A stretch of 64,000 nucleotides of DNA from Patiria pectinifera. Lineage: Eukaryota; Echinodermata; Asteroidea; Valvatida; Asterinidae. Made by a program: the position numbers and the translations under genes. The notes below the pieces were generated by a model. That model was not told the DNA's origin, searched no databases, and worked only from the letters and a program-made list of their open reading frames with translations. This document shows positions 14,322 through 63,440 of this stretch, piece by piece. The stretch spans positions 5,061,717-5,125,716 of the forward strand of contig CM057150.1 in NCBI GenBank assembly GCA_029964075.1, in the 5' to 3' direction. Every line of letters starts with the position of its first letter. The first letter of the stretch is position 1.

Positions 14322-14853
14322 CAGTGTTGTAGTCGAGTCCTCCTCATCCGAGTCCGAGTCCGAGTCCGAGTCCTTGAGCAAAGGACTCGAGTCCGAGTCC
14401 GAGTCCTTGTCAATTTTTGATGTCCGAGTCCGAGTCCGAGTCCCGAGTCCGAGTCCTACAACACTGAATATTGAACAAAAAGTCCAACACATCGGCAAGC
14501 AACTGAATAACTGATGAATCGATTTATTTGGTGGGCAATTGGCTAGGTTAGGTTGGAATGAATCAATTGATCATTGATCAATCGGCAAGTTATTTTTGCG
14601 AGCGGCAGAACTGCGGAATTCGGTTCCACAGCAAAACCAAATCAAGGTGAAAGACATAAAATAATTGAAATAGAACACCTAAAAAAGACCCGATTTTGCC
14701 GGACTCGAGCCGGACTCGAAGCCGAGTCCTCGAGTCCTTGGGGTCCGAGTCCGAGTCCTTGAGCAAAGGACTCGAGTCCAAGTCCGAGTCCTTGAAAAAA
14801 GGACTCGAGTCCGGACTAGAGTCTGAGTCCCGAGTCCGAGTCCTACAACACTG
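14322..14853. mobile_element. hAT-like non-autonomous element with GAGTCC hexamer arrays
   Basis: Terminal inverted repeats CAGTGTTGTAG and CTACAACACTG are flanked by a perfect 8-bp target duplication CCTATACC (14314-14321 and 14854-14861). Both ends are built of (GAGTCC)n-type arrays, 14333-14455 and 14700-14842. An extra inward CTACAACACTG at about 14455-14465 closes off the left array. The middle 230 bases are unique. No transposase. 8-bp duplications are characteristic of hAT (also P and Merlin) elements. Confidence 0.85.
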
Positions 14854-14861
14854 CCTATACC

Positions 14862-15914
14862 ACGTCTCAATTTCTCAACCCGATGTTCTCGACCGTAAGG
14901 AACCAATTTGAAACTCCATGTTTTGGTACCCTCCCCGAGGGATAATGAGTAGGTCTACTCTATACATATCTTTATTATTAACATCTGCTGCCGTATGTGC
15001 TACACAACGGAGCCTCATTAACGAAACGTAATATTGACCATGAGTGTGAACGGGGGGGGGTGGATTGAAAAGAAGTGATGTTGATGATATTTCGCGCGGA
15101 ACAACATTCACGCACCGCACGGCGCGACAGCGTCAGTTGCGCGATGAGGTCGCTTGTTGTGTAGAGTTCGTCTGGTGTTCAGTGGAGAACGTGCCAACCG
15201 CAACAAACGCCCTTGTATACTTCACAATGCACTCGACACAATGGCGCTGGCCGCCTGGATAAAAGTCTACAAGCTGGAAAGGATGAATTGACTTCAGCCA
15301 ATTAATTCCCTTCCAGATATTTTGACAATCAAAATGCCAATTATCAAAGCCGTCCTTACTACCTTACAAGGCCTATACACAGCTTTTGCCTTTCTCTAAT
15401 TAGTTGCAGAAAAAGTGTTTTTCAGGAATTTTATTAAGTTCGAATTCCCAGCCCGTTTTGTTTTCCCCACCAAAATAACCATGCATTAAATGACATATTT
15501 TAGGAGGGGTAAACAGCTTTTGTCCAACTGCCTTGCTCAGCAAAATTTGATAGAGTCCACTTGGAAAATGGGTGCAATATGGTTGTTTCTAAATAATACG
15601 GCATGACGCAGTGCAAGGTCCAGCCAATATGAATGCACCACTGCACGAGATACCGTACAGTTGTCGTCTATGATCGTTTATTTGGCAATCTGTCGTGTCT
15701 CCTTGAAAACAAATAGTTTTGATTAAATTACCAATTGAAATGAGTTCACCTCTCTAGGTCTTATTATCTGCTTTCTGCACAGGAATACATTAATGATCTC
15801 AAAAAGGTTTGTTAATTTCGAAAGTCCCTAATTATTTGCACATTCTCATTCTCATAATTGATGAAACTTTGACGTGCAGGCGAAGCCAATTTAAGTCTTG
15901 GATAGGGGTGCAGC
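14862..15914. other. Intergenic, no gene seen
   Basis: No coding sequence or element termini recognised. Confidence 0.3.
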
Positions 15915-16038
15915 ATACCTATGTTCCCCAATACCGATGTTCCCCAAAATCCTTACCCTATAACCCTAACCCTTACCCTAACCCTGACCCTAATCCTAAG
16001 GATTTCGGGAAACATCAGTATTGGGGAACATCGGGTAT
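15915..16038. repeat. Second inverted repeat with telomeric-like core
   Basis: Arms of about 40 bases (15915-15955 and 15998-16038) each contain ATGTT(C/T)CCC twice, with ATACCGATGTTCCCCAAAAT and its near complement. They enclose degenerate CCCTAA repeats at about 15956-15997. It resembles 9366-9505 in plan but the arms differ in sequence and have several mismatches. Confidence 0.75.
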
Positions 16039-16640
16039 ACCCCCTTTAATAGGGCACACTTGTGGAAAGTCACGAAAGTTGAAATTAACAACTTTGGCGC
16101 AGTTACTGGTAGCCCATCTTTATCATTCTAGCGTGAAACTAAATGTTCACACAACGTGAACCTCTACAACAATTTCTGATAATGTTTTGAGATTAAAATG
16201 CATAATTATGACATCAATTTTAAAGAACACGTCAATTCGAAAATAACAAAGGGAGGACCTCAAAAAATGGAATTCAACTTTGTGCCCTTCACCTAGGCCT
16301 ACTCAATTTCACATATTAGTGAAACGATTTTAATGTCAGATAAATATCAATGCTTTCGATTGCTTGAAAAACAGCAACAAAATCTAAAAATTTAATTCAG
16401 TCTTCCCGGAGTGTAATTGACTGTCTCATTTACTGGTGTTTTTTTTATTATTTTTTAATGAGCGCGATCTGCATGCACTGCAACGCCAAACAATACATTA
16501 TTAGTCCCATAGGAACACATCAATGCTATCAAAACAGTCATGTTCTCTGTTTTTCAACATGCCACGTTGGGTCTGATCGTCTGCTAGAATCGAGACAGGC
16601 TCTTTGTAATGAACATTTTTGTTTTTACTGATTCCCAATA

Positions 16641-16824
16641 GACCGTTGCGCACGGTACCGCCATCTTTGTGGTCACGTGGTAATCTCAGGGAACATTACA
16701 TTGAAAATATGTCCCATCATGCATTAGGATCCAATGGCATGATATGGGACGCATTTTTTGCACGACACGCTCCTCTGAGATTACCACGTAGTAACCAAGA
16801 TGGCGGTATATCCGTGAAACGGTC
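16641..16824. mobile_element. MITE with about 50-bp inverted repeats
   Basis: GACCGTT, ACCGCCATCTT and ACGTGGTAATCTCAG occur in order from the left end and as complements from the right end. Target duplication not clear. Confidence 0.65.
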
Positions 16825-19490: not shown

Positions 19491-19498
19491 TACCGCGG

Positions 19499-19907
19499 CA
19501 CCGTCGGTATCAGAATTGTCAATAATCAATATATCGGAAATCCAATATCGAGAATATTCGATATATCAATAACACCACGTACATAAAGGTGCCCCTTTGA
19601 CTAAAAAACAAAACACAAAACAAAACAAAAATGAAATTTTTAAAGTCCCAATTTTCGACGGCTTTCTCTGGAGTATATTGCTCAAAGTTTTTAAAAAAAT
19701 TGTCAGCAAACGTTATTAAACACAAAGTAAAAGCAGAAACGGGAGATTTATCTAGACGATAATCTGATGCATTTTCTACATTTTCGATATCATTCCTCAA
19801 TGTCGAAAATTTCGATATTTCGATATGATTAAAAATTTGCTATCGGCGATATCGATATCATAATATCGAATAATCGAGTAATATCGATGTATCGACGGGT
19901 GCTCACC
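19499..19907. mobile_element. Putative inverted element with ATATCGA arrays
   Basis: GCACCGTCGGTATC at the left and GATGTATCGACGGGTGC at the right are imperfect complements. Repeated ATATCGA words fill 19519-19570 and 19785-19885. TACCGCGG on the left (19491-19498) and TACCACGG after the right end may be a decayed 8-bp duplication. Confidence 0.5.
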
Positions 19908-19909
19908 TA

Positions 19910-22799: not shown

Positions 22800-22807
22800 G
22801 TATATAT

Positions 22808-23142
22808 CCGTGTTGTAGTACTCGTACTCGGTACTCGTACTCGAGTACTTCTCGAGTACTTTTTTGGAGTACTCGTACTCGTACTCGTACTCGAATGTCA
22901 AAGTACTCGTACTCGAAATGACGGTACTCGTACTCGGGCAGCAAAGTACTCGTACTCGAATAGCAGTACTCGGGGGGGGGGGAATGGTGTAGCTTGGCTA
23001 TATACCACAGACTTATTTTTTCGATACTTTCAGTTTGAAATGGTTGACTGACTTCTGGAGAAATCAAAGTTTCCTGATTTTCCTCTGTGCACGTACTCGG
23101 CAGTACTCGGTACTCGGAAAAAAGTACTCGACTACAACACTG
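22808..23142. mobile_element. hAT-like non-autonomous element with GTACTC hexamer arrays
   Basis: Ends C(C)GTGTTGTAG and CTACAACACTG are flanked by perfect 8-bp duplications GTATATAT (22800-22807 and 23143-23150). Arrays of TACTCG/CGAGTA occupy 22816-22970 and 23092-23130. The termini are the same as at 14322-14853, but the hexamer differs at one position (CGAGTA against CGAGTC). Confidence 0.85.
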
Positions 23143-23150
23143 GTATATAT

Positions 23151-24290: not shown

Positions 24291-24295
24291 ATTAA

Positions 24296-31293: not shown

Positions 31294-31545
31294 TAACGGA
31301 CATTTATTTGGCGTTTTTGGTTTTTGTTTCCAATTCAGTACAGTAACCGGGTGGACAGAATGTTTGCCTGCCAAATCATAAATAATATTGTTCCCCAATT
31401 GGGGCGGGGGTGTGTCACATTTTTTTACGGGAGCTCATATGCATTTCAGGTATATTCTTTGAAACCCTCAGGATCACCCATGGACACCTCAATTAACAAG
31501 TCCCAAAAAAAATCGCTTGGTCCCATTTTTCCAGCGCCCCGCCCG

Positions 31546-33440: not shown

Positions 33441-34093
33441 AATGCAATGCTGGCCTCCTTGGCAGTACATGTACACTCAAACTGTAACAGCCATTTTAAA
33501 CTTCAAAATGGCCGTGTAGTAGTCTGGTTCCCTGACCCCATTGTCTTCGGGGTGCACGCCACCATAAACCTTTAAATTAGTGCGCGCGAGCTCATGGATA
33601 TTTTGTGACCCCACAGTTAATTTTGAATATATGAATTTGTCCTGCACACAGAAACTACATGTATTTCCCCAAAGCATGCACACTGCCACAAACGTGTGTG
33701 ATCAATATATACATGTAGGCAGTTGTACGTTTTAAAGAGAAGTTTTGATTAAACAAGAAATAGTTATTGTCCAAATGCCGGTGGTTAACATTGACCAATC
33801 GCAGTGTATTTTTGGAACAGTGATAGCTAAGGGTTGGTAATGTGTATTATGAGTATATACAGGATAGAGAAAACGCTTTTCTTTTAAATTTTCACTAAAT
33901 GCCGGGGACAAATTTAATTTTAAAAAACCATCAAATTTATATGATAAAATAATGTACACATCAAACTGTCTGAGGGAGAACGAACGAAAATATTAGCATA
34001 AGTGGTTGATCTGTCACGATCAGATCTTTTAAAAATGAAGTGGCCTATTTCTAACGTTTCCTTGTCGCTTCGCAATCACGTCATGATGTGCGG
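33441..34093. other. Intergenic, no gene seen
   Basis: A TAGTCTGGTTCCC word at 33520 matches the end of the element at 37216-37310. Otherwise unremarkable. Confidence 0.3.
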
Positions 34094-34780
34094 CCGGTGT
34101 GGACGGTAATTCTGTCCCCAGTTAAAAGTGTCCCCCCTGTCCCGTTAATTCTGTCCCCCTCCAGGTAATTCTGTCCCCTCCAGTTAATTCTGTCCCCCCT
34201 GCATTGCACGCATAGGTTGTTATATTGATGTTTATTTATTATAATGAATTCAGCGCACAGGGTATACATTTTTAGATTTTTCCACCCTTCATCAATGATT
34301 ATCAAAATGAAATTAACGTTTAGATGTTAATCAACCGATCTATGTTTCTGCAAGAAAGCAGAAAAGGCACGCGTAGTAATACTCAACCTATCGCTAACGC
34401 GCGCCCTCCCTCCTTAGGTGCGGTACACTCGCGCGCACGCCCACCATGCAAATCGCTCGCTCCCGAATTGAAGTCGTCATCAAAACGGGAGTTGTGCTTT
34501 GCCGTAAGCACCATTCCCGAATTAAGCAAGGCGCCGCGCAAAAACAGTTAATAACTTCACTAATATACAGTCTGGGTGCTAGACTTGTGACGTTGCACGG
34601 GGACACATTTACCAGGGGGACACATTTAACGTCGTGCAGGGGGACAGATTTACCTAGAGGGGGACAGGTTTACCTAGGTAAAAGTGTCCCCCCCCCCGGA
34701 CAGATTTACCGGGTCACGACCTGGTAAATCTGTCCGGGGGGACACATTTACCAGAGGGACAGAATTACCTGCCACACCGG
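34094..34780. mobile_element. Inverted element with arrays of a GTCCCC-containing motif
   Basis: Ends CCGGTGTGG and CCACACCGG. Just inside are four or more copies of GGTAATTCTGTCCCC-type units on the left (34105-34200) and complementary GGGGACA(C/G)ATTTACC-type units on the right (34598-34768). Near 34697-34735 they form a local palindrome. The middle is unique. No clear target duplication. Confidence 0.75.
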
Positions 34781-36692
34781 CGCGCGCCGTTGTTAAGTTC
34801 CCCCATTGTAGAAATATTTATGTCAATCAAGCACTTGTGACTTGTGGCTTCCAACTCGGGCGATTTTATTCGAAAAAAAAAAGCAGTCGGACTTGTGGGT
34901 CGATTTCGCATATGAAGCGGGGGCTACATTTAGACCGGGGCCCAGAGATTAACAACCGTTTTAGGGGTGGTTTAGGGGGAGGGGAATAAAAAAAAAAACA
35001 TTGACCCGGTTACCACTAATAAAATTGAAAAGAAAAATGTTCAGGGCGTCGCAATCTTTAATTTCCAGGGACATAACTAAGCATATTTTCACAATTTAAC
35101 GTTTATAATTGAGTAGTTAAAGCATTTTCAGGTTAAGTGATACTAAAACCTCTAAGATAGATGGAATATTTTACTGAGTAAATTCGTGTCAAACCTTTCA
35201 AAGCGTTTTTCTCCGATTTGTATTTCTGCAACGCTGACCACCGGGTGTCAGTTCGTGGTGTCGGTGACGAATTTGGTGTGGTGAAACTTCGGACTTCAAA
35301 AATGGGGTCCGGTTATGTCATCAGCACACTACTGTCAATGTTGCACACTGAAGACTCGCAGCTTAATTTTCTTAGGTAGAGCCGACTTCCAGATTTATCT
35401 GCTCTCCAAGCTAGCCACTTGCTACGCCACTGATATATAGTACGGACTGGGAGCAAGTTGCTCGCACTCGGATCTGCTTTTGCCCAAACAAAGTGACCTT
35501 TTTCAGAGGGCTATTCCTTGCAGAAACTGAAAAAAGAGGTTTTGTTTTGTTTGAAATCAAACAAAATCGAATTTGTTAACGAGCACGCGTCCGGGGAACG
35601 CAAATTTAAACAATGGAAAAGGCCCCTTACCTAAATCCCGTAGCAGCAGGTAGAGTGCATTATTTTGATGATAAGATTTTATCAAGAGGGGACTTGAACA
35701 TGAACTGTACGGTCCCAAAACTTTTTGAACAAGTTTTGGACTGCTACATTTTCAATAAAAGGAATATAGGAATAATTTATTGTGTGGGATCGATCTGTTA
35801 CTGTTTCTTTGTTATACGTGCGCGGTGCGCCGATTATATTGTGTTCGATTTCGAGGTTATTTCCTGAAGTTTATTTGTTTCCTGAATAAGTGACCCCGAA
35901 TGACCCTTGCTATTTATGATGTGAATAAAGACCGTCCAGACTCGACTCACGCTCATTATTCACAAAATCGTCTCGTCCGAAAGCTGTGATCATATAACGG
36001 TACAAGTGTACCTTAGCAACAAAATAAAGAAATCTTGTTACTAGACATAAAAGAATCTGCATATGATTTAATGGAATTGTTTTCTTTTTTTGGAAACGTG
36101 TTTTGTACAATTTTGTTTTTAAGAATAATAATGGTTATATTCCATGCAAACTTAGATTGATGTACTTCAGTACATTTAAATATAAAACGATTTGTATTAT
36201 TACACGCTCCACTGTTTGGTAACATAATTATATTTTGAATGAGCCCAGAATGCCGGCGCACAACCGATCAGGCCACACACGTACACGTGCAGCTAGCGTA
36301 TTGTAGTACAAGTTGAGCACATGGTGATCACATGCACACCCTCATTCCATTCATAAGTGAAAACGGAAGCATCCATTCGATTCTCGTAGGGGTTAACTTT
36401 CCCATCAACAACCCAATATACATAAATTCTAAAAAGTCCAACTTAGTGTTCGCGTTTTCTAATGAAACATGGTCAACATTTATATTTTGTCTTGCAAGAT
36501 ATTGAAAATGCACATGTTCCGACAAATTATTTTGTATTAAGTGCCAAAAATACCTGCTTTGTGGAAGTGAATTTGTGGCATTTTCGCGCGTAATTTCGGC
36601 GCTCGAACTGAAAAATTGCGCGCCAACCCGGCTTTCACGATCTTACGGTCCATTATCGTCGCGTTACGTACGTGTGTAGAAACGACTAGCTT
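34781..36692. other. Intergenic, no gene seen
   Basis: Short frames (for example 35613-35867) have no recognisable motif. CG-containing words are frequent at 36580-36670. Confidence 0.3.
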
Positions 36693-36700
36693 AGATCTAG

Positions 36701-37533
36701 GGGTCGCACTAAAAAGCGTCAACACAGCGTCAACACAGCGTCAACACATGACAGAAGCGTCAACACACCGTCAACACATCCATAACACATTCTGAATTAA
36801 CAAAAATGGTATATAATTGTAAAGCATTGAATAAAAGAGAATTTCCATTGGTTTGAGTTTCCATTTACTTGTTAAAAATATAGTATTTTCACGCGAAAAA
36901 ATGACCTTTCGCTTGCACGGCCGTTGTCCGCCATCTTGACCTCGCGCAAAGCTTGGACTACACCATTTCAAGTAGGGATGTAAAGTAATGGCATTATCTT
37001 GTCATAAACAACAGAGGGATACCAGATCTGTGACGACTGAGGATCGGAGTGGTGGATCATTATTTTGTGAGTTGTGTTTATGTTTCATTTAGTTTATTGA
37101 AATGGACATCTTTTGGTATTGGCCTGCCGCGCCCTCTCTGTTGGTTTATTGTACAACGCTATCACCCATTAGCATAATGGTATGGTCCGCACTGCCACTG
37201 AGGCAACATGGTAGCTAGTCTGGTTCCCAGACCAAAAGATGCCGACTATTCCTGATGAATCTTAGACGTGTAGACGTCGGGGGAAATTGTCAGGTCGGGG
37301 AACCAGACTACATGGTAGCCGATTTCGGAGCGGCACGGAGAGCCAATTTTCTTGAACTGAAAATCAAATTTTCAGACGTTTAACCTATTAATTTTAAGCC
37401 AAAATCTTGTTTCTGACCATACTATATGGGTTACATACTGCTTTTGTAACTTTTAATGCATTTTGGATGTGTTGACGCTGTGTTGACGCTTTGGAGTGTG
37501 TTGACGCTGTGTTGACGCTTTTTAGTATGACCG
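36701..37533. mobile_element. hAT-like element with GCGTCAACACA arrays
   Basis: GGGTCGCACTAAAAAGCG at the left and CGCTTTTTAGTATGACCG at the right are flanked by 8-bp duplications AGATCTAG (36693-36700 and 37534-37541). GCGTCAACACA units repeat about five times at the left and four times inverted at the right. The interior has a nested element at 37216-37310. No transposase. Confidence 0.8.
37216..37310. mobile_element. 95-bp element with 9-bp target duplication, nested
   Basis: Ends TAGTCTGGTTCCC and GGGAACCAGACTA (one mismatch region inside) are flanked by CATGGTAGC at 37207-37215 and 37311-37319. Solo end sequences of the same type occur at about 33520 and 49931. Confidence 0.8.
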
Positions 37534-37541
37534 AGATCTAG

Positions 37542-41562: not shown

Positions 41563-44500
41563 GTAAGACATTCCCCCCCCCCACACCCCGTCAGATTATT
41601 AAGCCCCGCCCACTCTGCGCTCGTGCAGCAGCACTACTGCCTCTCGAATGTCCCACTACATTAATAAACGGCACTCGTTTATACTGTGCTGCATCGGGAG
41701 TCCTGTTTATTACGTCACGATTTACTATGTTTTGTTTGCTGCCCCAAACACGTTCGACACGCTCGGGTCGAAACAGGACCTGAAAAACGGCTCTCAAAAG
41801 TACCTTTTGTACTCATTTCATGACAGACACAATAGTCGTTTTTATTTCATCATACCTTAGGCTTCATAAACCCGGAAAATGACGGAAATGTCTTCGAGCA
41901 TTCCACAACCTCTTTAAAAGTTGTTCAGTTTTGAAAGAGGCATGGAACAAACGCATCCACCAACACTTACAAGTGTACAGGTGCAGGTATTGAATTATTT
42001 CTTCACAAAATGTGATTTATTGTCTGCCAGACAATAATCCGGCTCTCGCTGGGAGGTAATCTGTGCAAAAAAAGTGAAAGCCCCCTTTTTTCAGATGGTT
42101 GCAGATGCCCCAAATCTGGATGAGGCAAAAAAAAAAGTCTCCAGTTTCTGGTATGGGGCTTGCCCCAAAAGTGGTGCGGTGACGCTTTATATGTATTTTT
42201 TTTCAAAAAGAAAAACCTTGTTATTTTGCTGACGCTACGGCAATGCGCGCGCAGACCAGACCAGAAACCAGACTTTTTTATTGGCTTATTTATTAGTTTT
42301 TTTTATTAAAACAAAACAAATTGAAATTTGCAAGGAGAAAAGAACAATATCAATTTTATTTTTAAGAGTATGGGGTTTGGATTTTATCTTCAATTCAAAG
42401 TCGATTTTTCATGCATTGGAGCCCCGAGGTACATGTACATACATGTACATGTACAACCACGATTAAAAGCAAATCAATCAACCACCAACATATCATTTAT
42501 GAAATCGTATGTACCAGTCCTTCTGATTTGAAAATCACAGACGTGTGGAAAAAGACACACCTGGATTTTTCTAGGTTTTCTAGGTGTGTGATCTGTGGTC
42601 CAGGGAAATTCAGGCGTGCAATTATTCACACTTCTCGGGAAGCTTTTAGGTGTGCGATGGTGTGGGGGTGTGATCGCACGCCTCAAATCAGAAGGACTGA
42701 TGTACATGTTAATGTGCATTGCAAAATGAATCCAAACAAGGAGTAATGCAAGAGTGAAAGGATTGAAATATTAGCTAAAAGGAAATATCAAAAACGGAAA
42801 ACAGATGTAAATGTTGTACATTTTATACCCACATCAAGCATGTAGTCGATATTTCTCTGCGTTCAAACAACTTATTGTCCCCTATTTCCATCTTCAAATC
42901 TATACTCCCTCAGCTAATCAATAATTCACCGCATGCTTATTCAAGCCGTCAGCAATTTAATCCACGGACTACGGTACCACAGCTTTTCAACCTTTGGCAA
43001 GTTGCATCCGTGCCTGTTCTTGGTTTTTGGCTATCACTGCCGAGACGGTTAAACTAGCTAGACTTCAGATTACATGTATGTGATATGTAGATCATGTTCT
43101 CAAGGATTTTGAGTCATGAATGAACAGAAACCACAAATAAAAACCAAAAGAAAATCCAAATCAGGGACCTCAACCAGTATTTTAAAATTGGATTTAAATT
43201 TTTGCTAAATTCTTAAATCCTGTTGCTAAAATTCTTAAACCGTGTTGCCTAAATTCTTAAGCTCTGTTGCCTAAATTCTTAAAACCCGGTTTACACAGCG
43301 AATACATTGTTAATTGCGATACAAGTTGTCAAAAACTACAGTCATCAAAAATTCCAAATTGGAGGCCCAAAATACACCTCTATTGCCCTGCTTTTGATAA
43401 TGATAATAATGATAATGATTCTTTATTGTCCGCATCTTATAAATACGGATAATCATATTCCATTGGCAACACAATTACATTAAAACACTAATATTACATG
43501 TACATCAAAACCCTGTTACATAAATCAAAATACAACACACATCTAAGTACATGTATAAAAGAAGGAAAATAAGACGAAATGAAATTGTTTTCAATTTATA
43601 CTCAACAATTTACTACCATAAGATGGAATTTTGCGTCTGGGTGATATAAATCAAATTAGGTTTTGCCCTTCACTGACGTTTAAACACTGTATACTCGGTG
43701 TGTTACCTCCCGAGTGAAATTTGGAAAAAATCACTCGGGTGGGACTCGAACCCACGACCTCCTGCTTTCTAGTGCAGATGTCTTTACTACCAGTTCTTAA
43801 AAGTGTATTTTATTATTCACGTACTATGTAAAAGCCAGTACATGCACATGTGATTAAAATATTTATATTTATTACGTAAAAATATATTGGCCATTTTATC
43901 GCTTGGTTAGTGATAGTATAATATTCATTTATTTTCATTTTTTTTTAGATACAAAAATAAAGAAGAAAAGCCCCTCAGCGACACCCAAACCTCTGCCGAT
44001 TATTTAATGTATTTTTCGTCTCATCTCCATCAAGTATAAAACTAAAAGTTAACAAACATCGCAATATGCAACTGCCAATGGTGTGACATTTTTGGATAAA
44101 TCCAGTGTGTAATGAGGATAATTTTCTCCACAAATTGCAGACTGATCGCATCAGTTTGGTGCGCACTTAGATGCTCCCCGCTCATCACTGTAGCCTTGAG
44201 CAGAAGAGGGCGGATTAATTTCCTGTTTTGTTCTTCGTGCTCTTTCGTCCGATTTGGCATCCCTCTTTATTATAGTTAGGAATAAATCAACATCAGCCTG
44301 CATTGGCTGGGTCAATTTGGGATGCCCTACATGCAGCCACGCACATATTAGTCTGGGACTGTGCATCTGATACGGCTGGACAAATTGAGATTTTTGTATT
44401 GGGGCGCTTAATGGCTCTTCTAAATAAATTGTCTGAGAATATTTTAAAGTGAAGTGAATGTTCATGTATGGTCATTTATTAACAGTTAATGTTTGGGAAC

Positions 44501-50500: not shown

Positions 50501-53500
50501 TTAATTACATTGTAAACCAAATACACTTAACCTTGGACACTAATATTAAAAACCTAGGACAGGTTTTGCAGAAATGCTTTACATGTACATTGGCTACCAG
50601 CTAAAATAATGGACAATAGTCGTGGGCCTTATTCCGGCACGAGCCATATTCAATTTAAAGTAAGGTAAAATCTTTATTTTTAGAACTTGCAAAGAGAAAT
50701 GAAAGCAATGACATAAAGTTAATTGCACATTATACCAGTCTGCTCTATTGCATAATTTTAAATTTCTGATTAAACATACATGTACCCTAATGTTTTAAGC
50801 CACTAAAAAAAAATAATATGAAAGTGACTCTAGGATAGTCTTATATCATCGCATTCAACAGTTCACAATTAATAAAATACATTCAGGGAACTAGACCAAA
50901 ATGGCTTATTTATCAATAAGGCTGCATCCGAATCAACTGTAGCTCGAGCTAGGTCTAGGTCCGCGCCCATCGAAAATACGCGGGGACGCGCTGACAATAG
51001 ACGTAGCCGTAGCTCTGGAAGCCCGTTTCGGACACGGCCTAAGGTCCATTGACATTTGGCTGGTTCTTGTTTGTAATTATATGCACTAACAATGCTTCCT
51101 TTCAAACAGAATTGAAGCTTAGTGTTTTGACAGGGATGGCAGTCCTGCAACTGCCTAATTTCAGCTTTCTTTGCAAATTATAAAATATTTTCACACCCTA
51201 TATGTGTTTACTTTTCCTTTATAACTCAAATTTCAGGCAAAACTGTCCAGAGTCTATGGACATCGGCCTGGTTTCAAGCCATTCAGTATTAAACATTTTT
51301 CACCTTTCAGAGAGTTGTTTCATTAGAATACAAAGTTAAAAAATAAGTTTAGACACTCGGTTTCTTAATTTTCATTTAAAACACACATTTCAGGCAAAAA
51401 TGTGAAGGGCAAAACCTAATTGATTTACATCACCCCAACGCAAAAATTCCACGTAAAAGCCCGGTTCATACTGCATGCGAAAGCAAATGCGAAGCGAATT
51501 TGACGTCATGGAACGACATTCGCTGCGAAATTCGGGGGAGTTGAAGTATGTTCAACTTTTACGAATTCGCAAAGCGAATACTTGCCATGCCGTCACAAAT
51601 TCGCATTCGCTTTCGCTTTTGCGCCGAGTATGAACCGGGCTTGATGAATAACTTTCATTTGCTCAGTTTATGACTTTTTTTACAGAAACTTGGATTGGTA
51701 TGCAATGAAAGTTGAAGGTGATTTTTTTATTTCCCACATAGGATGAGCCCTTGGAGCCCGGTCTGAAGGTCCTCCCCATCTGCTACACTCTGGTGCTGCT
51801 TGTCAACGTGTTCTCCATTACCTTTGATGGTCCTGAATGTGAGTAGGAATTCAATTTGAGCCCCAATCCATAAAAAAAGGAAAATTATAGAAAAAGTGGA
51901 ACAATCACTATTGTAGTTGTACACAAACGCAAGGTTGCTAATTTGGTTGTAAAGGCGATAGTTGCATCACTTTATATGTGCCCCCCCCCAAAAAAAATAC
52001 CTCAACCAAACAAACAAACAAACCAAACTATGCCCTGATAAATCCAACTTAATTCCAAAACCCAGCTCAATGCTAATCAACCCAATCCAACCCATCCAAA
52101 TCCAACACAACCCAACATGCCTAACCCATGCCATCCCAACCCGACCTGACCTAACCCAATTAAACCCAACACAACCCACCCAACTCAACATGCACAATCA
52201 AACCAAACCTAACCCAATTCAACCCAACCCAACCCAACCCAACACAACACAACTCAACCCGACCCAACCCAACCCACTCAAACCCAACCCAACCCAATCA
52301 AACCAAACCAAACCCAACCCAACATGCCCAATCAAACCCAACTCAACATGCCCAATCAAACCCAACTCAACATGCCCAATCAAACCCAACCCAACATGCC
52401 CAATCAAACCCAACTCAACATGCCCAATCAAACCCAACTCAACATGCCCAATCAAACCCAACCTAACCCAAGCCAACCCAACCCAACATGCCCAATCAAA
52501 CCCAACCTAACCCAAGCCAACCCAACCCAACCCAATCAAACCCAACCCAACATGCCCAATCAAACCCAACCCAACCCAACCCAACCCAACCCAACCCAAC
52601 CCAACCCAACATGACCAATCAAACCCAACCTAACCCAACCCAACCCAACCCGACCCAACCCAACTTGCCGAATCAAACCCAACCTTACACAAGAATTTTT
52701 TTTCAAATTCTCTCCCACAGTACTAGGAATGAACAATGTGCCTGTTTGGGGAACCTTCATTATAAGTCTGGGTGTTGGACTCATCACGGGGCTGATTGTG
52801 TGGTTTGTGGTCGTCCCGCAATTGAGGAAAAAGCTGCAAGGTTTGTAAATATTACCAATTACATTGGTGACAAATACAACAGATATTAATATTTACAAAT
52901 ACAAGTAGTGTATCTCAGAAATATTAATCGAAAGCTATATGGGTGTTTACATAAATGTGGAGGCCAGGGGTATAATGCACATGTTCTTTCCTTTCAAGGG
53001 CCATTTCCATGTTAAAATAACCAGCTTGCTAATATTTGTGTTTTTACTTTATTGCCCATATCACTATGTACCCACTGAAATAAAAAAAAATTAAATCACC
53101 ACAATGCATTTGTATAATTTTGATCAAAAATTAGCCAGAATTATGACATTATTAGGTAAAAATGCGTGACATTTTTACAGCTTGTCCAATGGTGCACAGT
53201 TTTCATTCTTTCAATTGATAAATTTGGTCCTTTTTAATTCTAAATGATTGATGATAACCCAAAACTTAATATTAAACACAATGTTCGTGCATCGGCAACT
53301 TTGTATCATTTTGACATGCCCGCTAAAAATACAATGTACCATCACTCTGTAACATTTGGTGTCAGCAAATCCTGTTACAGAGTGAACTTTACCATTGATT
53401 ATAATATTTGTAGAAACTGTCAACTATTCTAAATTTTAAGTGATTATTGAAGTCTTTTATTAAATAAAGAGACTAAAGAAGACCAAAAGTGAAATTCAAA

Positions 53501-56500
53501 GAAGTACAAGTTTTTTGTTTTTGACAAAAATATAGACCCTAGACTGCAAAACCATGTGAAGCTGAATTTAATTTGGTTATTTTGAAATTTGACCCTAATG
53601 TCACACACTGGCCTCCACATTTATGTAAACACCCACATACATTGTACATAAACATTCAACTATATGGAATGAATTACTGATCACGGGATGGGCAAAACCC
53701 TCACAGAAACCCTTTTGGAAAAAAAACTAAATATCACTCTGTTGTGAAACGACTTTTGTGATTTGACTTGTGATTGACTTGTGATTGACCCTGTTGCAAC
53801 ACTGAAAAATGTCACGTCAAAGCCTTAATTACATTTAAAAGGCGTGCAAGTGGGGGTGAAGTGGCATGCCCAAGGACACAACATATGGCCAGCAGCTGGA
53901 TTCGAACCCTCTGATCATTGGTCACAAAACGCTAACCACTAGGCCACACTCCCCACATCCTCTACAAAACAGTAATCACTGATTTTTTTTCCCAACGTAT
54001 TAGGGGCTGATAGTAAATTCTCGGCACTACCATGTGTCAGCCTGGAGGACGTCAAGATTGAACCAGATGTCACCATTGAAATGAAAGAGAGCATCACTGA
54101 AAAAGGTAACGGCATTTTAACCCCGACTCCTTCAGAAATTTTGCTTAAGGCCTTCCCAATTTCTACAAAATCCTCCTTTGAGCCCTCCTTCCCGATGGAG
54201 TTTGGAGCATTCATAAGGTTTCTAACAAAACCGCTTTGTACCAAGGGCAAAAGCTTTAAGTCCTGCAGCCGATTTCAAGAAGCTATTATTGCACAAGTTG
54301 CGTAACATTTCGGTTATGACACATTTCACGAAAGTTGCACAGTATGTAAGTCTGTCTCTTACGCAAGACATTATGGCGTAACTTGCGCTTTCACTTTAGG
54401 TGGTGTAGTTATTTGGGTAGCGACTGAAAATTCAAAATACATTTTTTTTTTATCGAGAGTCTTCTAAAGCCTGTCTTGTCCAAAAACGTTGCCCAGGTAC
54501 GCCAAGTCTCGTGAGATCGGTAACAAGTTTGTTGTGCAGCAGCTGTGCAACAAATTTGTTGAATAAAGCCTACTCTTACGCAAGTTATGCAAAAAAATTT
54601 ACGCACGATTTTTTGGGAAAACAGCTGCTAGACATTTCTCACGATTGTATTGTACAACCCTAGGAACCAGAGAAAATGACCCCCCGGTAGAAAACAAATA
54701 GTTGGATGCAGAAATTGTGACTTCCCTTTTGCTTGCTTCAAAATCTTTTCAGAAGAGCCTTTGAACCCAGAGAAGACTGACATCGCTGCACTTGATGAGA
54801 AACTTCGAGTTGTTGACATTGAGAAAGCTGCAGCTGCCAATGTTGAGAAAGAACCAATGATGATAATGAGTATGTCTTGCTGACTGTTTATATGTAAACT
54901 ATTTAACCCTCCGAGCAGCGAAGTGGTGATTTCATTCTCCACATTTTCCAAAAATGACCATTTTTTTTTCTTCAATGGGCCAATAAGGCCAAGCTTCCAT
55001 GTAATCCTCACCCCTACTATACACCACAAGCCTGTAGACTCCCATTGGCCAGTCCCTACCCACTCCGGAGTAAGGAGTGTTGAAAGACAGAAGCCAAGAT
55101 GGCGCCCAATGCCTTTGTGCAGTAATTGGAGATCTTAGTGGCCAGCCCTAAGTGCCGCCGATCCCTTTGTGTCAACCCCTCGTGCCGCCAGGAGCCCAGA
55201 CAGGTTGTAAACAATCCCTGGCCATGTGAATGACCTATATCTTGTGCATGTACAGGCATGCCAGGGTTATTGACCTATAAACACATGTGGTGATCAAATT
55301 CTCCACGTGTTTCCACGGTGTGATTTTTTTTGGTAAGCTGCTCGGAGGGTTAAAGGAAAGGGAGGTTTGTGGTAACACCATGTGAATGGTATCTCTTAGG
55401 TCACTGAATCTGCAAACGTTTACTTGTTTGAGTCTGAGTACTTTACACAAGAGGTTATGGCACTGAGACACCTCAATGATCGAATCTCAATCAAAAGCCA
55501 AAGAGATCCATTATAAACCATAAGTATGAGTCATTCATATATCCGAAAAGAACAATGAAATTATGGGGTGTGCCCTAAAAATTGTACGAGTTGTGAACTG
55601 TTTTGGTAATGGTTCGATGTGGCCACTGTACATGAACATGAAGCCAGAGCAGATTCTGTAAAGCCTGAGGGAATCATGCTTGAAATTCCTTTGGTGTATT
55701 TTCCACAACGCAGACCCTGAACTGGACATATCCTGCGACACCAACAACACTTCCCTTCAGTCCTCGCAAGACCTAAGCTTCTTCCAGCGATTCATGCTGC
55801 GGACAGGGTGGCGTAAGATTGAGAGCGCTAGCACCACGCCCGGCAGTGCCACGCCCGACTCGCTGCGCTCCTCCACCAGCAGCAGCACCCCTCCCAGGAG
55901 AAACCTCGAGGCGTGGAAGAGCGTAGTGGATCCTCCTGAGGTGGCCAAGCTCTGCAGTCCCTTGCAGATTCTGTCGGCTGTCTTCGCTTCATTTGCGCAC
56001 GGCGGAAACGACGTGTGGTAAGCATACTAAGGGCCGGTTAATACTCAGGCATGCAACTTTTGCTTGGATCCGCGGATTTCCTCGTTTTTTACTTCCTGTG
56101 ACTGGCATTACAAATTGAAAAACACTGTACAAATTCTTGTGTGGTTTGGAGTTTCCTCGTTTTTTTCTAAATTCTCAGTTGCATGCCTGAATACTCGGTG
56201 TTGAGTGGAAATGCAAACGGGAATGCGAATTTGAGGCGTAACATCAACTCTTTCCACTGCGAATTTGCAAGAACTGAACATATAAAATAACAGTGTCGTG
56301 TAAACACCCTGACTGTAGTCAAATTCCATCGACAGACCAAAGAGGTAACTGGTAGGTACAGCTGGCATGCAGTCCTTCTGATTTGAAAATCACAGGCGTG
56401 TGGAAAAAGGCACACCTGGATTTTTCTAGGCGTGTGATTTTTCTAGGCGTGTGATTTTTCGAGGCGTGTGATTTTTCTAGGCGTTTGATTCTGTGGTCAA

Positions 56501-59500
56501 AGCTGGGACTGAATAATCTGGATTTTTTTTTTATAATATTCATCTAGGTTAACAGTAAAGCCATTTTCTCTTCACTGATATACTTTTCCCCCACTAATTA
56601 TGAAGCATAATTATGACGAGGTGTGGTGTACAGAGGGATTCAGGCGTGCGATTATTCACAGTTCTCGAGAAGCTTTTAGGCGTGCGATGGCGTGGGGGTG
56701 TGATCGCACGCCTCAAATCAGGAGGACTGGGCGTATCAATCACCTCCAGTCAAAGCATGGCTTTATCAAAGTAAGAAGGGAACTCTTTATCCCTGGAACC
56801 AATGTGGTAGCAGTGATTACACCTGCTGATTAACTTCCTTTCCTCTGTGTAGCAATGCTGTGGGTCCCCTGGTTGCGCTGTGGTCCATCTACCAGTCCGG
56901 GGGCGTCGGCCAGAAGCAGAGCACGCCCATTTGGATCCTGTTCTACGGCGGGCTGGGCATCACTATTGGGTTGTGGGTGCTAGGCCGTCGAGTCATTGAG
57001 ACAGTCGGCGACAGGCTGACCCCCATCACTCCATCCAGGTGGGTTCTCAATGAAAGCACGTTGTTCAAAAACTGTACCCTCCCCAAAAAATTGTTGCTGG
57101 TCCTGCACCCGATTTCATCAAACTCTTCGTAACTTACGATGCATCGCAGCGAGTCGTATCTCTACGATGCGTCGCAGCTGCGACGCGTCCTGCGATCCAT
57201 TTCACAAAACACGTCGTAAGTGCGACGCGTTGTAGGTGTATTTATAGCACAACTCGGTGACTGTTTTATGTATTTAGTCAGCGTACAGTAAATAGTCGTC
57301 TGATATTCAACAAAGAGTCGTCGGATCTCAGCTCGAAATTTGTTAAAACGTAAAACAAAATGGCGGCCGTGCGATGCAATTTTGAAGGAAAACAAACTCT
57401 CATTGGACTGTATAGCTACTTTGAAATTTCAATTCTAATATTCCGGTCTAATTCATAATTATTCAATGAATTTTCTATTTACAACTTTACACGCATTGCC
57501 TCGGTATTATAATCTCGTTAATGTAATGTTTATGGCATAAAACTGGCTTAGAAATGACTCTTCTTATTTTGCGACGACCACAAGACACGTCTTAACTTGC
57601 GACGTGTTTTAAGCCGTTGTCAAGGAACTTACGACGCGTTCAACACATCGCAACTTTCGTGAAATGGAACATAAGACGCGTCGCGAGTTGCGACGTGTTA
57701 CACGTCGTAACTCGAGTTGCGACGCGTCGCAGCGCTTCGTGAAATCGGGTGCTGGAAGACCAGCCTAGTGTCCTCTTTGTATCCGACTGCATGACTGACT
57801 GACTGACTCCCCGACTAACTGTCACTTGTGGATTGGGCTGGATACCTATCTCCTGGTTAATACTGATCTCGTTCACCGACTGTCACCTGCTTCACTAGGT
57901 TGCCTATTCATGTCATGTAGCATGTACACCACATATCGTCACCGTTTTCACGAAGGGACGGGCATATCAAAATTGACAATTTTTTTTATTTCAAGTTTTG
58001 TTTTCACTATCTTGCTTCAAAACATGGTAATTAAGCATTCTGACATGTTTCCGTAAGCAAAACATCATTAATACCGGAATTACATTAATGACGCCAGGGG
58101 CAGGCATCTCGATAATTGCATTTTGCGTTTTCACGAAGAGACGCCAACATGCCTGCCCCTTGAACACGTACAAAACGTATTGCACTGAAAGGCGTAACAG
58201 TAGGTCAACTGAGATTTTCGTTTTCTCGAAGGGACGGGCATCTTTGTTACATTCTTAGCTGCACGTGCGTAATCACAGGACCCCCTTCCCTATGGAAAAA
58301 CACATTGAACAAGAGGGGCGTAAATGTGGAAAACTGGGATTTTCGTTTTCACGAAGAGACAGGCACCTTCACTAATCAATTTTGGCCAATTAACCACTGT
58401 GTTAATTATAATTACTGGGTTCAAATTAAAGTTTACCTATCAAAGAATTATGTCAAGGTTTCTTTATTGCATAAAGTTGTTGCAAAGTAGTAGTTTTTGC
58501 AGTTTAAAAACGGAGAAACTTCTCTTGCGATTATCTCGAAAACGATTTTTTTTCAAAATCCACATGCCCGTCCCTTCGTGAATTCGGTGACGATATGCAT
58601 AGTCTGGCTGTAATCATTTCATGTACTTTCATAAACACGTACATGCGTAGGCAATATAAAGTCAGTGGCGGAAGTATATTTTCCATTTTGTGTCAAGTTA
58701 CTACTAAAGTTTATTTTAACTTTTTATCCATTTTGAGTCCTTTTTCGTCGTGTCCGTGCAACAAGGTTGTATTTCCTAAAAAGGGCCATACGTGAAACAC
58801 GAGTAGAATGTCAAAAGGTTGTATCTTACTTAAAATAACCTGGATGTACACTCAATGGACGTGGAGTTGCGGCCTTGTTTGACGGAGTGTATTCGCACGA
58901 GATACGACTTTGTTGCAGAACGGAGTTACAACCTTGTTGCACTGACTTGACAATCAACAAGATTTTTTTATACTCTGGAACTAGCTTTAGTGGGGTGGGC
59001 TTGCCCTTTATTTATTTGTCTTTAAAAAAAACATTTCCAAGATTTTTTTGTTCGCCTGAGGACATAATTTAAGCTCTCCACCTATAGCTTCCCGTCTCAA
59101 AACTCAAACTTTTTCGCCCCTTTCCCCTCAGTTGTTCTGAAAAGAATCTGTCAATATATTATTTAGCTAAAATCCTGAGCAATATGCTCTTTCGAAAACG
59201 TTGATATGCAAAGTTTCCTCGAGGAGCCATACCTAAATCTTGCAAAACAATTCGGGCGATTCACAATGCAGTGCACCACCAAGAGTTTTCCACGGAGAGT
59301 TCATTTTTCCCAGTGCATTGTGGGAGATGGTCGACAAATTCGCAGCGCGGGACATTTGAAATTGTTAGTTTTTCCGGGCAGTAGTTTCGTAAGCGTATGA
59401 TTCGAGTATCTATTTGCCCTTCTGTTTTCTTTTTATCAATATGGTGTTTTTTTTTGTAAGGCGGCAGAACGCCCAAATCTATAACAAATTAGCTCAAGTT

Positions 59501-60527: not shown

Positions 60528-60678
60528 ACCGTGCCAATAACTGAAAAAAAGATAAATGGTTGTCACTTACTGTGTGAGAAATAAATTAAATCACTGTGAT
60601 GTGACCTTTGATAACTGAAGGTTTCGATGTTCTGCCGGACATGAGACTGAGCGTTTGACGTTGCAGTTCTCATCGGGC

Positions 60679-60821
60679 AAGCTAACGCGCCGACAGGTTC
60701 CACGCACGCGCACAACGCACGCAATGAATGCAGTGCGATATCACCCTCAGTGTGTGACATGCATTTCTATTGTTCAGACACGTGGCCGTCCTAGACCAAT
60801 GAAATTACAGTATTCAAGCAG
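60679..60821. repeat. Dispersed repeat Y, copy 2
   Basis: Matches 47563-47702 in the same orientation, about 80-85 percent by eye. Confidence 0.8.
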
Positions 60822-61480
60822 GATTTTAATTAACCTGCGTCACAAATCAACCATAAGTCGACTATAAGTCCCTGATTGAACCTACTCATTGGTGATAATA
60901 TTGTTGAGAATTTGAGACATTATGACAAATGTTGGAACTTACTCCAACTTGTCAAAATGAACGCTTTTGCGATCAGAACTCGTGCAACATTAATGATGAG
61001 GGTTGTAACATGAACTCGGTAAAGACGGGGTAAAAAGTAGTATTACATGCAGAAAGGCTAGTGCTAAAAATAATTCTGAAGGCATTAATACAGACTGACA
61101 TGCATAATCCACTCGATATACTTCAATCCTTTTAAAAGTACAAAATATATGTACATGTATTTTATTATGTGTGCCACTAACTTGATTACACCTTGAAATT
61201 CAAAGATGTACTATTACGTATTCTTTCTCTGAAACTTTTGTAAATTTAAAAAAAAATTGCTTTGCAAAAAGTTGACATGCCTTTTTGTCTGCTGTTGAAA
61301 TTCAAAGCTAGATATAATTACATAGGTAATTTTCTTGCAGATTTGGTAAAGAAATTTAGTACTGGATGTATAATTAATACCCCCCCCAAAAAAAACAAAA
61401 TCAATAATAAAAATACATTGATGCCCCCTAAAAAAAAGTAACAAGTCATAATTATATAATAAAGAATAAATAAAGGCAAA

Positions 61481-63092
61481 CTAAAGAACATTTAAAAGAA
61501 AAGTTCCAGTGGAACAGTCAAACAGAAAAAAAACCAATTGAACAAAAATCTCAGGGTTATGATTTATTAACAACAAATGTAATTTATTGCTTTGGTGTGA
61601 TTAACTTGCTTTAGTTTTTGCCCTTCAGTGTGTTCAAAGCTGTGTGAGTTTGGGTGTGTCAGCCACAAAAACCCTTCTGGATGATCTAAGCTTAACTAAA
61701 TGTAGGCTTGCTGAAGAGGGGGGCGGGGCGGGAGGAGGAGAATTACGACAGAAGGCGGAACTCTCTTTGGGCAGGACCTGTCATGTGTTTTTTATGTAAA
61801 AAGTGTGAGATCGATCAACATTATATTGCCAAGGTGTTTGTAACAAACTGTTCCCTCAAATTCAATTGTATATTATTTATGAAGTTACATCGTTTTCAGT
61901 AATTTATATTATGTACAAAGTACATCTGGGCCATTTTCCAAAGCATGGCTTGTCTTCAGCTTCGCATTCATTCTGGATCCGGAATAACTTTTCCTGTCAC
62001 GATCTATGATTTGAAGTTGGGCCGGTGTAGTCCATGTGAGCCGAAGCTGGACACAAAGCCAGTATTTAAAAAGTCCTCTGCAATCAAGTTATTTTTACAC
62101 ATTGTCATTGTGTATGTTAGCTGTGGTTGATTGCAGATACATTGTAGTACTTGACCAAATGGGTAACGTGTGAGTTAATGTAAAAAAACAATATATCTTC
62201 CCAGTTTTACCAATGTACACTGTACATACAGTTGTATTTGTACAAATTTATATCCATTGCAGGAGAGTGATCTCCCTAAGACTGCATATTTTGTGTGTCC
62301 TATTACACTAGGTATCGGAACTCCCCCATAATTTCTTTTTATTTTCAAAAAAAAGCCTGGGATTTCTTGGTCTATGATCAGAATAATCTGTTAAACATTG
62401 ATTTTGTTTTCATAATTTCCTTGTTGTTTAAAACCGTTCCCATCCATTTCTAATTGGTTACGACATGAATGTAAAACCAAGCCGAATAAATCTGACAGTA
62501 CCTATGAGAAGTTCATTTCGATTGTTAGGCGATGTTTTTTTTTCCAATTAATTTAATTAATTTAATATTGAACGGATCGGTCGTCTACAACAATATACTT
62601 TCGATCCATTCAATAATTTAATAATTCGATATGATCATGGAAGAATGTTTATTTCTCCATGATATACACGCAGGGTCTAAAATTCCTCATGCAACCATCG
62701 TATGTTCAGGTGCGCGTACAGCCCTTAATAGACAACATGACGTCACGCTTTGTTTACGCGTCCCTGCCCACCTGGCTCTCAAGAAAGCGCACATGTAAAC
62801 AGCGAGACATTATGTCTTGGGTATATTTGGAAGCGGCACCGGCGTTTCGTGGACGACTACTGTACTCGGGGGTTATTTCCCTCCTCCATGTTAATACATG
62901 TAAGTCGAGGGGAAATTTAAAATAACTGCACTGCCAAAAAAAAAAGGTCAGAGTTTGCCCAACTTTTTACCCAACGTTGGTACAAAATTCAAGATCCACA
63001 TCTTTTGAGCGAAAAATACCCAGCGGCCGTTGGGCAAACACGTGGCTTAAACTGGGGAAAAATTGCAGACAGAACAGTTGGGTACTTTTGAT
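61481..63092. other. Downstream region, no gene seen
   Basis: A frame at 61945-62130 has no recognised motif. A further AATAAA is at about 62484. Confidence 0.3.
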
Positions 63093-63440
63093 GGGGTCCG
63101 CTCATTAAGTCCGACGCCTCATAGGTCCGACGCCTCATAAATCCGACAAAATCGCACCCCCTACTAACCAATAAAAGCCCATAAGTCCGATGCCTCATAG
63201 GTCCGACGCCGTAACTATGACTCATAGCTCCGACGCCTCATGCATAGCTCCGACGCCTCGTAGGTCCGACAAATTAAACGCCTCGTTGTTCCGACGTCGG
63301 ACTTAGGAGGCGTCTGACTTATCAGGTGTCGGACCTATGAGGCGGAATAAAAATTGTATGCCTCATAATAAGTCCGACGCCTCATTTTCGGACTTATGAG
63401 GCGTCGGACCTATGAGGCGTTGGACTTATGATACGCCCCC
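63093..63440. mobile_element. Inverted element with GTCCGACGCCTCATA arrays
   Basis: About seven GTCCGACGCCTCATA-type units at 63109-63270 face about five complementary TATGAGGCGTCGGAC-type units at 63296-63430. Outer edges GGGGTCCGCTCATTAAGTCC and GGACTTATGATACGCCCC are imperfect complements. Confidence 0.75.

Follow-up and report, generated by a model that had tools for sequence, protein, structure and literature searches.

Short subterminal repeats that are bound by the transposase, or are important for it, have precedents in the hAT elements Ac/Ds (PMC3260210), Hermes (PMC10368747), and Kat1 (PMC4763223), as described in excerpts of those sources. The Ac/Ds elements of maize have 8-bp duplications, 11-bp tips, and deletion derivatives with variable filler, and their repeated subterminal hexamer, AAACGG, is a cooperative binding site for the transposase and the most likely source of specificity (PMC3260210, in excerpt). 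In Hermes, which has an 8-bp target, several protomers contribute BED fingers that bind short subterminal repeats, whose arrangement is asymmetric between the two ends, and in Kat1 of Kluyveromyces the hexamer AATTCA or its complement occurs six times between the ends and is thought to stimulate cleavage (excerpts of PMC10368747 and PMC4763223, respectively). In a 64,000-nucleotide window of the Patiria pectinifera genome (the whole stretch of DNA that was analyzed), we tested 11 elements, named here by their start positions in the window, and two of them, 14322 and 22808, together with their relatives elsewhere in the genome (referred to below as the clan), resemble these hAT systems. The clan differs from Ac/Ds in its denser array (20 to 30 sites), in the ordered doublets of one of its families, and in that the two middle letters of the repeat vary between sister families with identical tips. 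Hermes, in contrast, has a 4-bp site, AAG(T/C), found 17 times in one end and 14 times in the other, and no tandem hexamer array, and no sister-family code was found in the excerpted description (PMC10368747), whereas Kat1 is a domesticated hAT at a single locus with few repeats (PMC4763223, in excerpt). The new part is the lineage-specific dinucleotide behind identical tips; subterminal repeats themselves are known in hAT elements, and the "undescribed system" of the preliminary description is too strong a term, since short subterminal repeats of this kind had already been described. Within the limited literature collection searched, the portions of text returned held no clan of sister families combining identical tips with a lineage-specific dinucleotide through the whole array, and matches to the motif letters were judged from titles to be unrelated primer or gene matches.

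Element 14322 (14322..14853, + strand) is a non-autonomous hAT-type element with tips CAGTGTTGTAG, 27 CGAGTCC sites (22 + and 5 −) in two arrays, and the 8-bp target site duplication CCTATACC on either side (14314..14321 and 14854..14861). It also carries an additional internal right end (CAGTGTTGTAGGACTCGGACT; 14446..14466, − strand); an extra inner end is present in 5 of the 12 fetched copies of its family, near the left end in four of these five, as in the window copy, and near the right end in L084. Element 22808 (22808..23142, − strand) is likewise a non-autonomous hAT-type element with tips CAGTGTTGTAG; it has 21 CGAGTAC sites (19 in one orientation and 2 in the opposite one) and is flanked by the duplication GTATATAT (22800..22807 and 23143..23150). 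The window copy is shorter than the 23 other paired copies read (484 to 710 bp). The two elements had been thought to have unrelated motifs, yet they have CAGTGTTGTAGTCGAGT and the end asymmetry in common and their hexamers are one base apart; by sequence comparison, they are sister families related by descent.

Both belong to many-copy families. All 12 fetched copies of the 14322 family, window copy included, had paired ends, with a duplication matching at 8/8 positions in 11 and at 7/8 in one. Among 28 loci read for the 22808 family, ends were paired in 24 and unpaired in 4, and the duplication matched at 8/8 positions in 14, 7/8 in 6 (two of which have identical flanks and represent one duplicated locus), 6/8 in 2, 5/8 in 1, and 1/8 in 1; in both families, end pairs were selected partly by the best flank match. 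Insertion, judged from target site duplications in place of clean empty sites, thus took place with an 8-bp duplication in both families, and their copies lie in different duplications, which rules out satellite fragments as their source. The dinucleotide in CGAG-NN-C sites was TC in 380 of 400 sites of the 14322 family and TA in none, and TA in 533 of 570 sites of the 22808 family and TC in none. Non-autonomous elements with private motifs, as initially proposed for the whole list, are borne out for these two many-copy families with duplications. In the TA family consensus, units form ordered doublets every ~20 to 26 bp with non-repeat spacers between them. Among the 40 BLAST matches listed for the 14322 family, eight longer copies have internal blocks in common and differ in their gaps, as would be expected from internal deletions of one longer sequence. 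Seven open reading frames from long copies contained no transposase domain (one TspO match fell far below its cut-off), and transposase remnants in these copies were accordingly rejected.

The longer end sequence CAGTGTTGTAGTCGAGNNC has 1,353 exact occurrences genome-wide, and its backward-read control does not occur (0 matches). Of the first 100 ends listed, 94 have TC, TA, AC, or GC. In 75 distinct ends, tallied by eye from 100 of 718 rows, the first inner unit agrees with the terminal one in 73, and all three units read agree in 70. Code AC is present at 12 of 13 CGAGNNC sites from the tip on in a 353-base stretch and code GC at 11 of 11 in a 366-base stretch; a whole GC element measures 1,867 bp, with a mismatch in one tip and ATTCTTTG on both sides. 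The codes are not absolute, because the last unit of this GC element is CGAGACC, 5 of the 75 ends contain a deviating unit, and one element (L087) is mixed (TA 7, TT 3, and TC 2). A nearly fixed private spacer is found in each of the TC, AC, and GC rows; the codes are lineages with their own spacers, and agreement within them is therefore inherited, amounting to about four events rather than 75. A separate fifth code, TT, was rejected: of the three TT ends listed, two were read, namely L088, which belongs to the TA family but has an altered terminal unit, and the mixed L087. Viral contigs and bacterial genomes were also compared with the ends (0, 17, and 7 stretches; 2 stretches); we treated these hits as chance on our own estimate and because no full-length element was present among the 40 BLAST matches listed.

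In hAT elements generally, tips are of the CAG type, and the target of Ac-type members is nTnnnnAn. The tips are short inverted sequences of 5 to 27 bp, and the target of Buster-type members is nnnTAnnn (PMC3517528). The clan has 8-bp duplications, perfect in 14 of 24 (22808) and 11 of 12 (14322) paired copies, and the short inverted tip CAGTGTTGTAG at both ends, within the longer exact ends counted above. In 26 perfect duplications, T at position 2 or A at position 7 occupied 33 of 52 positions (p = 4e-7 for an assumed background of 0.295), whereas a central TA was not preferred (14 of 52 positions), so that the target preference matches the Ac type and not the Buster type. The genome contains at least 94 matches to the hAT transposase domain PF05699. 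In the part of the genome covered by both the PF05699 list and the end list (C1 and the first ~22.15 Mb of C2; 6 domain matches), no domain match lay closer than ~11 kb to the 100 listed ends of 1,353, and neither this comparison nor the 7 open reading frames of the long copies tied an autonomous partner or transposase gene to the clan's ends.

Our preferred reading, to which we assign a probability of about 0.75, is that 14322 and 22808 are non-autonomous, Ac/Ds-like hAT elements of one clan whose arrays would serve as transposase sites, with the dinucleotide matched to each family's own transposase. The tips (CAGTGTTGTAG) are constant across the clan and would be read by the catalytic part of the transposase; behind them are ~20 to 30 CGAG-NN-C copies, mostly in one direction and with NN fixed by family as TC, TA, AC, or GC, which would be bound cooperatively by its N-terminal (BED-type) finger. 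By analogy with the precedents above, the arrays are probably transposase-binding sites. More tentatively, and at somewhat less than even odds, we suggest a natural addressing code, in which sister hAT families with identical tips had the middle two letters rewritten in nearly every subterminal repeat (GAG-TC-C, GAG-TA-C, GAG-AC-C, and GAG-GC-C), each family being moved only by its own transposase with a co-evolved DNA-binding finger.

The same patterns might arise from a founder effect without function, in which slippage or gene conversion grew and homogenized each array and the dinucleotide is a lineage mark rather than a binding code. The main codes number only four, and in three of these the spacer is private and nearly fixed; copies also differ in their number of bare-hexamer runs, which slippage would produce, and mixed elements such as L087 do occur. 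However, simple slippage does not make ordered doublets separated by non-repeat spacers, as found in the TA family, the tip-adjacent unit has the same code as the array, and the other hAT elements excerpted above have subterminal repeats that are bound or play an important part; we regard this explanation as unlikely, at about one chance in four.

The preliminary description had proposed that about ten families share one end design, reached by convergence or inherited from an ancestor. Inverted ends are indeed present near the positions given for the listed elements, and in 9 of the 11 the most frequent 7-mer was commoner than in any of 200 dinucleotide shuffles, the repeats of 42515 (3 versus 3) and 51457 (4 versus 4) not rising above the shuffled maximum. 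The three perfect 8-bp duplications were also recovered (14322-14853, 22808-23142, and 36701-37533) and were matched by 0 of 4,000 random placements. The arrays are real, yet the listed elements have no single plan in common. The motif is inverted about the center in only 4 of 11 (34094, 36701, 63093, and, for TGCGAA, 51457), has one predominant direction in 14322, 22808, 56370, and 57932, and is of mixed orientation in 19499, 42515, and 57105; periods (6, 11, 16, 17, and about 20 bp), end sequences, and duplication lengths differ as well, and the clearest pair, 14322 and 22808, is related by descent. Two unlisted elements, 9358 and 15908, also have inverted short arrays, but their 16-bp units, compared with each other and with those of 63093, showed no greater similarity than shuffled units did (p = 0.06 to 0.96), so that kinship among the three was rejected, and no array was flagged in the duplication-flanked elements 40770, 11025, and 37216 of the window or C22:5265089 and C22:5375600 nearby. 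A shared design is thus improbable despite the repeated motif in most elements.

The remaining listed elements are instead separate inverted-repeat families, mostly unclassified; the search for further copies of 34094, 36701, 51457, 56370, 57105, 57932, 63093, and 19499 covered one neighboring 200-kb region. Element 36701 (36701..37533) has GG-type ends, GCGTCAACA arrays inverted about the center (5 + and 4 −), and the 8/8 duplication AGATCTAG (36693..36700 and 37534..37541), and within it is nested a small element, TAGTCTGGTTCCC (37216..37310), with the 9-bp duplication CATGGTAGC. Element 9358 (9358..9513), absent from the earlier list, has CTATGTTCCGACAC motifs (2 + and 2 −), a telomere-like core, and the 8/8 duplication GCTTCTAT; BLAST matched it to 5 places in the neighboring 200 kb, including one element of the 15908 type. 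Merlin elements have 5'-GG ends and 8- to 9-bp duplications (PMC8101967, in excerpt), and these two elements alone resemble them in both respects. In 36701, unlike Merlin, the outermost base pair is mismatched, the right end having C rather than G, and the excerpted source mentions tandem repeats inside one Merlin family and no inverted terminal arrays; 36701 may be called Merlin-like, as an unproven candidate member of the superfamily.

The fixed-end test gave no significant duplication for 34094, 51457, 56370, 57105, 57932, 63093, or 19499. Element 34094 (34093..34781; GGGGACA arrays inverted about the center, end CCGGTGTGG...GGTAATTCTGTCCCC) has a second end of its type at C22:5354100, and its test ends were off by some bases; 6 bases of freedom yielded only 4 bp (empirical p = 0.50). 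Element 42515 (42515..42699), with CAGTCCTTCTGATTTG ends and ATGTAC (6 bp; empirical p = 0.0015) on both sides, is a short relative of 56370 (56370..56729), which contains a 17-bp direct tandem array and whose duplication was not significant (4/6, empirical p = 0.11); a third copy of this type lies at C22:5278358-5278712. The palindromic element 51457 (51457..51642; AAGCCCGGTTCATACT...), with inverted TGCGAA motifs and a second motif, AGCGAA, of mixed orientation, has two further copies in the neighboring 200 kb; the window copy has no duplication, and TTA flanks one of the two other copies by eye, the PIF/Harbinger duplication being 3-bp TWA (PMC4482050). Element 57105 (57106..57751; ends CACCCGATTTCA) is flanked by CTG, which was not significant (empirical p = 0.06); CWG is also the duplication of NuwaI (PMC4482050). 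CACTA/EnSpm elements have CAC ends and 2- to 3-bp duplications; in a comparison with these that included 57932, CACC ends were found in 57105 and 19499. Element 57932 (57932..58597; CATATCGTCACCG...) carries four direct copies of TTTTCACGAAGGGACGGGC and one inverted copy at the right end, without a duplication at fixed ends. In 63093 (63093..63440), the 16-bp array CTCATAGGTCCGACGC is largely inverted about the center, and in 19499 (19499..19902), the weakest member of the list, the ATATCGA-rich stretch yielded no duplication at fixed ends that were off by some bases and an imperfect 10-bp repeat with 6 bases of freedom (empirical p = 0.017). That the arrays are chance lookalikes, namely satellite or simple-repeat fragments, is very improbable for the set as a whole: it may hold for 63093 and 19499, which lack both a clear duplication and a match in the neighboring 200 kb, but exact 8-bp duplications at many copies exclude such an origin for 14322 and 22808, and single perfect duplications count against it for 36701 and 9358.

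The clan touches on the open question of how new transposon families gain independence from their parents. In four lineages of one genome, the tips have remained unchanged while a two-letter code in ~25 sites per element shifted in concert, and more than a thousand exact ends are available for comparison, with CAGTGTTGTAGTCGAGNNC as a simple marker by which to sort copies. The arrays of the other listed families may do the same job as those of the clan, and the clan itself makes it possible to test directly, by comparison and by biochemistry, whether a transposase finger and its DNA array co-evolve and block cross-mobilization.

Tandem arrays of short motifs are real in most of the listed elements (named here by their start positions in the window), as the preliminary description had claimed, and yet these elements follow no common plan. 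The commonest 7-mer exceeded every one of 200 dinucleotide shuffles in 9 of 11 elements, with 27 copies versus 6 in the best shuffle for 14322 and 21 versus 4 for 22808; by the same 200 shuffles, no excess was found in 42515 (3 versus 3) or 51457 (4 versus 4). Motifs inverted about the center, the proposed single plan, were seen in 36701 (left half +5 −0, right half +0 −4), 34094 (+0 −5, +5 −1), and 63093 (+7 −0, +2 −6) and for TGCGAA in 51457 (+3 −0, +0 −2), unlike AGCGAA in the same element (+1 −1, +1 −2). Orientation is mainly direct in 14322 (+13 −1, +9 −4), 22808 (+2 −15, +0 −4), 56370 (+4 −0, +1 −0), and 57932 (+3 −0, +1 −1) and mixed in 19499, 42515, and 57105, and array periods are 6, 11, 16, 17, or ~20 bp, depending on the element.

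Target duplications at fixed element ends were compared with 4,000 random placements for 21 elements. The three 8-bp duplications noted earlier held firm, those of 14322, 22808, and 36701 being perfect and equalled by 0 of 4,000 placements. A 6-bp duplication was found at 42515 (empirical value, 0.0015), 3 bp at 57105 (0.06), and a 4/6 match at 56370 (0.11), and none at the fixed ends of the remaining listed elements. With 6 bases of freedom per end, 19499 gave an imperfect 10-bp repeat (9/10; 0.017), which is a lead only, because 21 elements were tested. An imperfect direct repeat, TACC(G/A)CGGCAC, brackets the 19499 stretch at 19491-19501 and 19908-19918 and may be an old duplication with an atypical length.

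The motifs, described as unrelated, are in one case clearly akin: 14322 and 22808 are sisters, sharing in the same orientation the start CAGTGTTGTAGTCGAGT and differing in the array unit (27 CGAGTCC and 0 CGAGTAC in 14322; 21 CGAGTAC and 0 CGAGTCC in 22808). In both, motif sense is reversed at the other end. Searching the genome with 22808 gave 1,580 first-look candidates, 40 of which were scored; ends were paired in 24 of 28 loci read and unpaired in 4, with duplications of 8/8 (n = 14), 7/8 (n = 6), 6/8 (n = 2), 5/8 (n = 1), and 1/8 (n = 1). Alignment of 23 of the 24 paired copies (one of a duplicated pair was omitted) yielded a 560-bp consensus, to which copies are 91 to 96% identical. Its sites point mostly one way (27 versus 2), and many are doublets 6 bp apart that repeat every ~20 to 26 bp. 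The search with 14322 gave 475 candidates; 36 of the 40 scored were 96 to 99% identical, mostly across the right arm, and the family is therefore young. All 12 copies fetched had paired ends, with duplications of 8/8 (n = 11) or 7/8 (n = 1), and were 522 to 1,363 bp long. Eight longer copies have internal blocks in common, separated by differing gaps, as would be expected of internal deletions from one longer sequence. Five of the 12, including the window copy, carry an extra inner end, and the duplication still brackets the outer pair.

Both families belong to a clan with common tips, in which the middle dinucleotide of the unit CGAG-NN-C is a family code (TC in 14322, TA in 22808). A third and a fourth family occur in the neighboring 200 kb (C22:5200001-5400000): CGAGGCC, represented by a 1,867-bp element with ATTCTTTG on each side and one tip mismatch, and CGAGACC, represented by a right end. 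Genome-wide, there are 1,353 exact CAGTGTTGTAGTCGAGNNC ends and none of the backward-read pattern; the first 100 listed have codes TC (34), TA (29), AC (22), and GC (9) and, rarely, TT (3), TG (1), CA (1), and AA (1). An end-plus-later-doublet pattern gave 718 matches, in which a place with more than one gap length counts repeatedly. The 100 listed reduce to 75 distinct ends (by visual count, TC 37, AC 19, GC 14, TA 4, AA 1) and under-sample the TA family, whose first doublet sits further in. All three codes agreed in 70 of these 75 ends, and the terminal code equalled the first inner code in 73; the discordant ends are C1:6462897 (AC AC AT), C1:20767229 (AC AC GC), C2:11806071 (AA TA TA), C3:4125241 (TA TA TT), and C3:23162573 (GC TC GC). 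Within families, TA occupies 533 of 570 sites and TC none in 24 copies of the 22808 family, and TC occupies 380 of 400 and TA none in 12 copies of the 14322 family. Among five small stretches read, AC was found at 12 of 13 sites in an AC stretch and GC at 11 of 11 in a GC stretch; one TT end (L088) is an altered TA copy, and another (L087) has a mixed array (TA 7, TT 3, TC 2). The last (G000:C2:1731875-1732110), with an AC tip, CAGTGTTGTAGTCGAGACC at both tips, and AAGACC-type repeats inverted about the center, is a further variant of the clan.

The other listed elements appear to be of several kinds. Element 36701 and 9358, which was not on the list, may be Merlin-like, both having GG-type ends with duplications of 8 bp (Merlin: 5'-GG ends and 8- to 9-bp duplications; PMC8101967, in part). 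A nested element at 37216-37310 within 36701 has its own 9-bp duplication. The small inverted elements at 9358-9513 and ~15905-16048 have a telomere-like (CCCTAA)n core between ends of two 16-bp units each (nearly so in the latter, 15908); the duplication of 9358 is GCTTCTAT, and BLAST with 9358 placed five matches in the neighboring 200 kb, including a 15908-type element. Elements 42515 and 56370 are one family, for which a 6-bp duplication is possible because a third copy nearby has the flanks TTGTAC/TTTTAC. Two further copies of 51457 lie nearby, and TTA on each side of one (given an element start at AGC) hints at PIF/Harbinger, whose duplication is TWA (PMC4482050, in part). In both 57105 and 57932, one end has a CACC motif with TTCACGAAG behind it; our guess is CACTA.

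In the window (G000:C22:5061717-5125716; assembly size, 613.5 Mb), open reading frames match a phosphate transporter (PF01384) at 41190-41783 and 56830-57132, with a third match at 55662-56021 scoring under the cutoff. The first two are exons of a spliced gene, from which we infer that the window belongs to an animal genome; 42515, 51457, and 56370 lie between them, probably in introns, and 57105 and 57932 are positioned past the second. Also present are a hAT-type element without an array (CAGTGTTTCCCC, 40770-41091; perfect 8-bp duplication TCGTATGT); an element CAACCTCGTCCCCA at 11025-11526 with a perfect 9-bp duplication (GTGTCCCAG) and three diverged, partial relatives in the neighboring 200 kb; a long palindromic element CAGGGTRAGTCAAA at 24949-25612 (8-bp duplication, one mismatch); several direct repeats common to 30710-31409 and 32711-33412 (91 to 94% identity; stretches ~1.4 to 2 kb apart); and a long CAACC-type tandem array at 52078-52664, within the 4-kb segment whose GC skew is the strongest in the window. 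Outside it, a hAT-type element CAGTGGCGTA (C22:5366276-5366524; duplication AGTAATTC) seems to interrupt a 21-bp satellite (GTACGTAC...; C22:5366049-5366805).

Ac-type hAT elements target nTnnnnAn. The clan prefers T2/A7 (33 of 52 positions, p = 4e-7; middle TA, 14 of 52), and this preference, its tips, and its 8-bp duplications are consistent with Ac-type hAT elements; the Buster-type target is nnnTAnnn (PMC3517528, in part). Ac/Ds is the closest model: according to sections of PMC3260210, its transposase binds AAACGG hexamers cooperatively, specificity most likely comes from these hexamers, and some Ds elements are deletion derivatives carrying filler. Hermes has short subterminal repeats, asymmetric between ends and bound by BED fingers of several protomers, and keeps ~70% activity after mutation of all inner sites at one end, so not every repeat is essential (PMC10368747, in part). 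Kat1 has a repeated hexamer with a proposed role in stimulating cleavage (PMC4763223, in part).

The clan inserts, is divided into families, and carries family codes. Its array is probably a transposase-binding site, in which the code would serve as an address for the enzyme of each family. The genome has at least 94 hAT dimerization-domain matches; no transposase linked to clan ends was found among the 100 of 1,353 ends listed with coordinates, and no transposase domain in seven open reading frames from long copies. The codes are lineages, the TC, AC, and GC ends each having their own nearly fixed spacer in the matches listed, and the evidence for coevolution therefore amounts to about four events. 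A founder origin, in which re-amplification spread a mutated unit that has no function, would also yield such lineages, and we regard it as less likely. The clan, whose tips stay constant while the dinucleotide of the subterminal arrays differs by family, is a variant of hAT in which the address reading is directly testable.
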